From Natrinema caseinilyticum (lineage in GTDB: Archaea; Halobacteriota; Halobacteria; Halobacteriales; Natrialbaceae), in assembly GCF_024227435.1 (NCBI RefSeq), contig NZ_CP100445.1, forward strand, positions 3,779,369 to 3,843,368: a DNA stretch of 64,000 nucleotides. Reading direction: 5' to 3'. Shown here piece by piece: positions 14,567 to 16,721 of the stretch (its first letter is position 1; the number at the start of each line of letters is the position of its first letter). The notes below the pieces were generated by a model. That model did not search any database, had not been told where the DNA came from, and saw nothing but the letters and a program-made list of their open reading frames with translations. The position numbers were made by a program, and so were the translations under genes.

Positions 14567-15112
14567 ATGAGTACGCAAAAGACCGTCCGTCAACAGGCAG
14601 GCACCGTCGAGGAGAACGCGCTTCGTCTCGATCAAGACAAAGCCGAGCAAATCGTCGAGGCGCTGAATACGGAACTGGCCAACGCCTACGTCCTCTACCA
14701 CCAGCTGAAAAAGCACCACTGGGTCGTCGAAGGCGCAGAGTTCCTCCCCCTCCACGAGTTCCTCGAGGAGGCATACGAACACGTCGAAGAAGGCGCGGAC
14801 ATCATCGCCGAACGCGCCCAGGCGCTCGGCGGCGTCCCCGTCTCGGGCCCGGCGAACCAGGAGCAGCGCGCGACCGTCGAATTCGAAGGCGAAGACGTCT
14901 ACGACGTCCGCACGATGTTCGAAAACGACCTCGAGATGTACGGGGACATCATCGAGTCGATGCGCGACAGCATCGAACTCGCCGAAAATCTCGGCGACCA
15001 CGCATCGGCCGAGATCCTGCGCGAAATCCTCGTCACGATCGAAGAAGACGGTCACCACTTCGAACACTACCTCGAAGACGACACGCTGGTGCTCGAGGAA
15101 GCGACGCACTGA
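14567..15112 (+). CDS. dpsA: DpsA, DNA-protecting ferritin-like iron storage protein
   Basis: The 181-residue protein belongs to the Dps/ferritin-like superfamily. It closely resembles halobacterial DpsA, which forms 12-mer shells that oxidise and store iron and protect the cell in oxidative stress. Inter-subunit ferroxidase residues are visible: His51 in KKHHWVVEG, His63 in LPLHEFLEE and Glu74 in EHVEEGAD. The C-terminal helix carries a second histidine cluster (EEDGHHFEHYLED). The ATG at 14567 (MSTQKTVRQQAG) is chosen over an earlier TTG because a TATA-like element is correctly placed for it. An iron-box-like operator lies 0.5 kb downstream in front of another gene, so iron control of this area is plausible. 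Confidence 0.93.
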   Translation: MSTQKTVRQQAGTVEENALRLDQDKAEQIVEALNTELANAYVLYHQLKKHHWVVEGAEFLPLHEFLEEAYEHVEEGADIIAERAQALGGVPVSGPANQEQRATVEFEGEDVYDVRTMFENDLEMYGDIIESMRDSIELAENLGDHASAEILREILVTIEEDGHHFEHYLEDDTLVLEEATH

Positions 15113-15398: not shown

Positions 15399-15566
15399 TC
15401 AGGGCTCGAGATCGACGGCCAGATCCGTGGCGATCCAGCCGTCGCTGTTGTTCCGTTCGGTAAAGACGACCTTCCCGGGTCGAGTTTCGTGGCTCGTCAC
15501 GACCTTTGCCGGCTCCTCGAGTTCTTCGTCGTGTTCTGAATCCTCCCTGCGGACGGGTTCGACCAT
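15399..15566 (-). CDS. 55-residue haloarchaeal protein behind an iron-box-like operator
   Basis: This open frame is translated from an ATG at 15566. The N-terminal half is strongly acidic (EDSEHDEELEEP) and is followed by VVTSHETRPGKVVFTERNN and the end SDGWIATDLAVDLEP. The shape, an acidic head followed by a short beta-rich body with a WIATD-type motif, resembles small haloarchaeal proteins of unknown function. Ten bases upstream lies a perfect-arm palindrome TTAGGC-GA-GCCTAA, and an AT-rich TTTTTAGATTT box sits at about -27. Transcription is therefore probably controlled by a DtxR-family metal regulator. No metal-ligand cysteines are present. The gene is real on regulatory and coding grounds, but its function is unknown. 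Confidence 0.65.
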   Translation of the reverse strand: MVEPVRREDSEHDEELEEPAKVVTSHETRPGKVVFTERNNSDGWIATDLAVDLEP

Positions 15567-15575
15567 CAGCGTGAG

Positions 15576-15589
15576 TTAGGCGAGCCTAA
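15576..15589. promoter_or_regulatory. putative DtxR/IdeR-type iron box
   Basis: TTAGGC-GA-GCCTAA is an inverted repeat with perfect 6-base arms. It lies between the AT-rich promoter element and the start codon of the 55-residue gene. It resembles the iron boxes bound by DtxR-family repressors, which haloarchaea possess. A further half-site, GGCCTAA, occurs at 15609-15615. Binding here would block transcription initiation. Confidence 0.6.
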
Positions 15590-15800
15590 ATCTAAAAAGG
15601 TTTTGGTTGGCCTAAGACGTCGGGAACGGGTCGTCGGGACGGCGGATATCGGTCGGCCGGTTTCTCGAGGTCGTCTCTCGGACGCCGCCTGTGGGTTTCG
15701 AACCCGCCCGGACGATCCCTACTCCGCTCGGCTGAGCCCTGCGTGTGATGGCCACGCGAAGATAGCATCACTTTTCCCGTCTCGCCGAAACGATCGTCAT

Positions 15801-16208: not shown

Positions 16209-16721
16209 ATGGACTACGACGTCATCCAGGGAGACATCGCCGACCAGTCCGCTGACGCACTCGTCAACGCGGCCGGGACGAGCCTTCGAATGGGCTCCGG
16301 CGTCGCCGGTGCGCTCCGGCGCGGCGCCGGCGACGCGATCAACGAAGCGGCGATGGAAGCCGGCCCGGTCGATCTCGGGGCGGTCGCGGTCACGGACGCC
16401 TACGCCCTCGAGGCCGAGTACGTCATTCACGCCGCCACGATGCCCCATTACGGCGACGGGAACGCGACGTCCGAGAGCATCCGAAACGCGACGCGAAACG
16501 CCCTCGAGCGAGCGGACGAACTCGGCTGTCGGTCGCTCGTCGTGCCGGCGCTCGGGTGTGGCGTCGCCGGTTTCGACCTCGTAGACGGCGCCGAGATCAT
16601 CGGCGAGGTGATCGACGCATACGAGCCGACGACTCTCGAGGACGTCCGCTTGATCGCCTACAGCGACGCGGAGTACGAGGCGATGGCGGCCGCGACTGGA
16701 AACGGAACGGAGCGGCGCTAA
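16209..16721 (+). CDS. macro-domain (ADP-ribose-binding) protein
   Basis: The single-domain 170-residue macro protein has the hallmark ligand motifs VIQGDIADQSADALVNAAG at the N-terminus, GSGVAGALRRGAG around residue 32, and the phosphate-binding loop VPALGCGVAGFD near residue 115. Macro domains bind or hydrolyse ADP-ribose derivatives, removing ADP-ribose from proteins or processing ADP-ribose-1-phosphate or O-acetyl-ADP-ribose. No fused domain or ADP-ribosyltransferase partner is seen next to it, so a general clean-up role is likelier than a toxin-antitoxin pair. Confidence 0.87.
   Translation: MDYDVIQGDIADQSADALVNAAGTSLRMGSGVAGALRRGAGDAINEAAMEAGPVDLGAVAVTDAYALEAEYVIHAATMPHYGDGNATSESIRNATRNALERADELGCRSLVVPALGCGVAGFDLVDGAEIIGEVIDAYEPTTLEDVRLIAYSDAEYEAMAAATGNGTERR

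Follow-up and report, generated by a model that had tools for sequence, protein, structure and literature searches.

The microprotein gene and its promoter

The window, a 64,000-nucleotide stretch of the Natrinema caseinilyticum genome (contig NZ_CP100445.1), contains a DUF7331-like gene for a microprotein of 55 residues that converges on the gene for the ferritin-like iron storage protein DpsA. The features of the locus are as follows.

14567–15112, plus strand: dpsA, for the ferritin-like iron storage protein; converges on the microprotein gene
15399–15566, minus strand: microprotein gene (DUF7331-like), 55 amino acids, ATG at 15566, TGA at 15399
15576–15589, minus strand: box 2, exact DtxR-type palindrome TTAGGCtcGCCTAA / TTAGGCTCGCCTAA, of the form TTAGG-N4-CCTAA
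about 15591–15601, minus strand: TATA-like AT-rich element CTTTTTAGA / ACCTTTTTAGA, placed from the sequence and conserved columns
15602–15615, minus strand: box 1, degenerate DtxR-type box TTAGGCcaACCAAA / TTAGGCCAACCAAA, two mismatches

On the minus strand, the microprotein promoter reads 5' to 3' TTAGGCCAACCAAAACCTTTTTAGATTTAGGCTCGCCTAACTCACGCTGATG. An earlier sequence-only reading had placed a palindrome between the AT-rich promoter and the start of the 55-codon gene, and this palindrome is exact (15589–15576, with the ATG at 15566). The half-site it had marked further upstream is a degenerate second box (15615–15602, two mismatches), which overlaps the BRE and lies 26 bp upstream of box 2, a spacing of ~26 bp being typical of orthologous loci. 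Box 1 and box 2 flank the BRE/TATA region. From the promoter spacing, the transcript probably starts at about 15569, giving a nearly leaderless mRNA, and box 2 would fall between the TATA element and this expected start site. Our promoter and linkage counts are based on 160 loci with a recognisable microprotein. An exact box 2 is found in the same place upstream of the ATG in 148 of these, from many families; the remaining 12 do not have it, but 10 of them retain box 1.

The microprotein comprises a variable acidic N-terminus and a conserved core, HETxPGKxVFTExxNxDGWIATDLTVDLE. In an alignment of 51 relatives, P30, N40, W44 and D48 are invariant, and V34, E37, D42, I45 and V51 are nearly so. 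The median dN/dS is 0.27 for the ORF and 0.16 for residues 21–55, indicating that it evolves as a protein under purifying selection. The gene had been described as too short for routine annotation. This needs correcting in that its relatives are not invisible to annotation, since the window microprotein scores 25.7 bits against Pfam DUF7331, just under the gathering cut-off of 27 bits. Of the 51 relatives, 40 match the family at E <= 0.01, albeit weakly (best E 5e-7). The description of the protein as lacking metal ligands is accurate insofar as no cysteine or histidine is invariant among the 51 relatives; the window copy has no cysteine at all. A search for relatives of solved structure found none (best E 0.41). 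The AlphaFold model (pLDDT 59.5) contains only a hairpin at residues 23–37, and a model of this quality neither allows an interface to be argued nor permits a choice among modes of action. Two other DUF7331-like genes in the same genome, one of them the canonical copy (C1:3935619), have no box just upstream.

The iron box across the genome and the order

The 14-bp box matches the left part of the 19-bp DtxR consensus TTAGGTTAG(G/C)CTAACCTAA, a corynebacterial sequence (PMC1382209); a resemblance to DtxR-family boxes had been noticed from the window. TTAGGN4CCTAA occurs at 11 sites in the 4.77-Mb Natrinema genome, against a single site for the reversed control and ~1.5 expected from composition, and thus is not explained by chance. 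In a set of 59 genomes from the order, the box stands just before an ATG at up to ~16 sites on each strand of a genome, whereas the control does so at 0–2. In the Natrinema genome, which has two clear DtxR-family regulators, the box precedes genes for a FecCD permease, an ABC ATPase, a solute-binding protein and a ZIP transporter. It also stands before less obvious genes, namely those for an RGP-like glycosyltransferase, a methyltransferase and a gluconate-dehydrogenase-like protein, where the gluconate-dehydrogenase assignment, like that of the solute-binding protein, is our reading of the sequence and does not come from a database match. Two of these genes, the gluconate-dehydrogenase-like gene (L314; G000 C1:1628169) and the reversibly-glycosylated-polypeptide-like gene (L001; C1:1614495), have no obvious iron role.

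The microprotein was detected in all of 125 Natrialbaceae genomes, and searches with an alignment as query detected it in 288 of 323 Halobacteriales genomes. The nearest named relative is N. gelatinilyticum, at 98% identity. A scan for orthologues carrying the same box had been proposed from the window alone, and it revealed that both the protein and the box are conserved across the order. Together with the presence of the same box before ABC-type and ZIP metal-transporter genes, this makes a role in iron homeostasis well supported. By the same comparison, DtxR-type iron regulation of the microprotein gene is a well-supported prediction.

Linkage and co-occurrence with DpsA

The sequence-only reading had named dpsA as the adjacent gene. 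Its product (14567–15112, plus strand) is an NF041388 equivalog at 294.6 bits and contains all four ferroxidase residues, H51, H63, D78 and E82, by which it is predicted to be a canonical iron-mineralising DpsA. The closest solved structure is 1moj, a Dps-like ferritin described as an iron-rich dpsA homologue. DpsA of Halobacterium salinarum behaves as a ferritin and its level falls in low iron (PMC3600143), the opposite of the behaviour expected for the microprotein.

Of the 160 loci, 130 have a dpsA gene within the sequence fetched around them. It is convergent with the microprotein gene in 123 (median gap 159 bp), divergent in 4 and in tandem in 3, showing that the linkage survives rearrangement. 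Among 80 fetched regions, 14 have no dpsA less than 4 kb away. We rejected dpsA as a direct target of the box, as a box lies less than 200 bp from its start only in two loci, where the divergent promoters of the two genes are shared. In most Natrialbaceae a macro-domain gene lies beyond the microprotein gene (16209–16721, plus strand, in the window); it was not seen beside it in most other families.

The two genes also co-occur. Both are present in 286 of the 323 genomes and neither in 20, whilst 2 contain only the microprotein and 15 only DpsA (Fisher p 2e-20, relatedness of the 323 genomes ignored). The link between microprotein and DpsA is a statistical one. The two microprotein-only genomes are G199, which has a weak DpsA match, and G204, which is 70% complete. 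The 35 genomes without the microprotein divide into 20 with no DpsA above the cut-off and 15 with only a divergent DpsA, and none of the 35 sampled was found to encode a canonical DpsA. The 20 double absences are spread over eight families, making several separate losses likely, although the genes are adjacent and a single deletion can remove both, so that linkage by itself would account for some of the co-loss. All 15 DpsA-only genomes belong to one family, that containing Halomicrococcus, and therefore represent few independent events.

Around the dpsA gene of 14 DpsA-only genomes, we found no microprotein, no box and no hidden divergent copy. DpsA from the DpsA-only genomes shares 56% identity with the window DpsA, where the other DpsA sequences share 82%, and branches as a clade of its own marked by R133S and other changes; E58 and E170 are further residues that differ there. 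A first set of 15 copies came from 14 genomes, one of which contributed two. Of these copies, 11 have lost one or more of H51, H63 and E82, and 4 retain an intact ferroxidase site; the fifteenth genome, G275, has lost these residues too. By comparison, H51, H63, D78 and E82 are kept in all 157 DpsA sequences from microprotein-bearing loci, the sequences inspected outside the Halomicrococcus family being those in fetched loci. Members of this family that have the microprotein mostly encode a canonical DpsA, some with a divergent DpsA as a second copy. One exception was seen, G191, which has the microprotein and only a divergent DpsA, with its ferroxidase site intact. From their sequences, the Dps proteins of the divergent clade appear to have lost the ability to oxidise iron. 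Its loci are L251–L265, L292, L296 and L297, with H51, H63 and E82 degraded.

A proposed action on DpsA

Taken together, the linkage, the co-loss and the lost ferroxidase site of DpsA suggest that DpsA itself is the target of the microprotein. The earlier suggestion of a regulatory microprotein of iron homeostasis therefore stands with regard to iron, whilst "regulatory microprotein" is too broad. We propose, with middling confidence, that the microprotein is repressed by a DtxR-type regulator, is made in iron starvation and acts on DpsA, either freeing its iron or stopping storage. An iron-loaded DtxR-family regulator, which we infer as the repressor, would occupy the two boxes flanking the BRE/TATA as dimers and block TBP/TFB and polymerase. 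As iron falls, repression would lift and the microprotein would be made. It may then act on the DpsA cage, making iron available or halting further storage. It would probably bind on or close to the surface of the cage through which iron enters and at which it is oxidised; alternatively, the microprotein may promote cage opening or turnover. Candidate actions are to block ferroxidation or nucleation, to open a pore, or to mark the cage for turnover. Expression in response to iron, binding to DpsA and the release of its iron are each putative steps.

Other explanations account for parts of these data. The microprotein might regulate the low-iron response in general or spare iron, for instance by serving an iron enzyme or the DtxR-family repressors as a co-factor or by antagonising them, with dpsA as no more than its neighbour. 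The box indeed places it in the iron regulon, a DtxR-family gene immediately precedes it in the same orientation in five Haloferacales-type loci (L127, L150, L152, L153 and L163), and some genomes lose the dpsA linkage but keep the microprotein gene and its box. However, the presence of the microprotein tracks canonical DpsA, and boxes of the TTAGG-N4-CCTAA type are also present in genomes without the microprotein, among them G134, G162 and G177; we consider this explanation rather unlikely. Hitchhiking of an unrelated gene is quite improbable. A chance neighbour would also go with dpsA in one deletion, and macro-domain and aldehyde dehydrogenase neighbours are likewise kept in Natrialbaceae, but in the other families sampled these two neighbours were mostly not found and dpsA was, and the co-loss extends to genomes that miss only the canonical, ferroxidase-competent DpsA.

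In animals, NCOA4 acts as an adaptor that directs ferritin to degradation. A comparable adaptor, which in iron starvation would deliver DpsA for degradation by the proteasome or a different protease rather than release iron or block storage, would share the linkage and co-loss evidence, and a variable acidic N-terminus, a short conserved core and a low-confidence model would suit such a protein. We regard it as unlikely, since the loss of its ferroxidase site should not keep DpsA from being degraded, yet genomes with such a DpsA have no microprotein, and we found no degron or protease link. It is very improbable that the convergent arrangement itself is what matters, with low-iron read-through generating an antisense RNA that lowers dpsA and the peptide being secondary. 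Convergence in 123 of 130 linked loci, the short median gap of 159 bp and the fall of H. salinarum DpsA in low iron (PMC3600143) would fit this explanation, but the peptide is under purifying selection and its gene persists unlinked. As the main cause of the linkage, convergent transcription is disfavoured because divergent and tandem loci stay linked.

To our knowledge, it is an open question how iron is retrieved from Dps mini-ferritins, and likewise how archaea draw on the iron they have stored. In bacteria, bfd lies beside bfr and is induced by low iron. When Bfd is missing, or can no longer contact bacterioferritin, iron stays trapped in the BfrB cage (PMC7762939). Like Bfd, the microprotein is small and linked to a cage that stores iron, but it has no conserved cysteines and so carries no [2Fe-2S] cluster and cannot be a ferredoxin. 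Its putative partner is a haem-free Dps 12-mer, and its repressor is predicted to be of the DtxR type, not Fur. The two proteins are not homologous, and any correspondence would be in the proposed function. It is possible, and we advance it more tentatively, that this constitutes a previously undescribed, order-wide archaeal mechanism in which a cofactor-free microprotein under DtxR repression binds to the Dps mini-ferritin cage and, in starvation, mobilises the iron inside. Such a protein would be the equivalent of Bfd for Dps, acting without redox chemistry. Questions of stored-iron retrieval become directly testable with this one small gene, which has an iron-type promoter and accompanies DpsA throughout an order that includes the genetically tractable Haloferax volcanii and Halobacterium salinarum.

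Literature searches on DUF7331 and on locus tags of the dpsA neighbour, whose coverage lay outside the key papers on the haloarchaeal DtxR regulon, returned nothing on the microprotein gene. The haloarchaeal family DUF7331 (PF24018), of unknown function, shares its length class, core motif and conserved tryptophan with the microprotein. They differ in that the window protein is under the family cut-off and that the canonical copy has no box just upstream. The promoter resembles those of the haloarchaeal DtxR-family iron regulon (Idr, SirR, TroR) in having a 14-bp box over core promoter elements, whereas the target here is a microprotein beside a storage gene, not a transporter. In one genome (G127), a two-box intergenic region (L312, 2542–2630) is common to the microprotein gene and a divergent ABC transporter ATPase gene.
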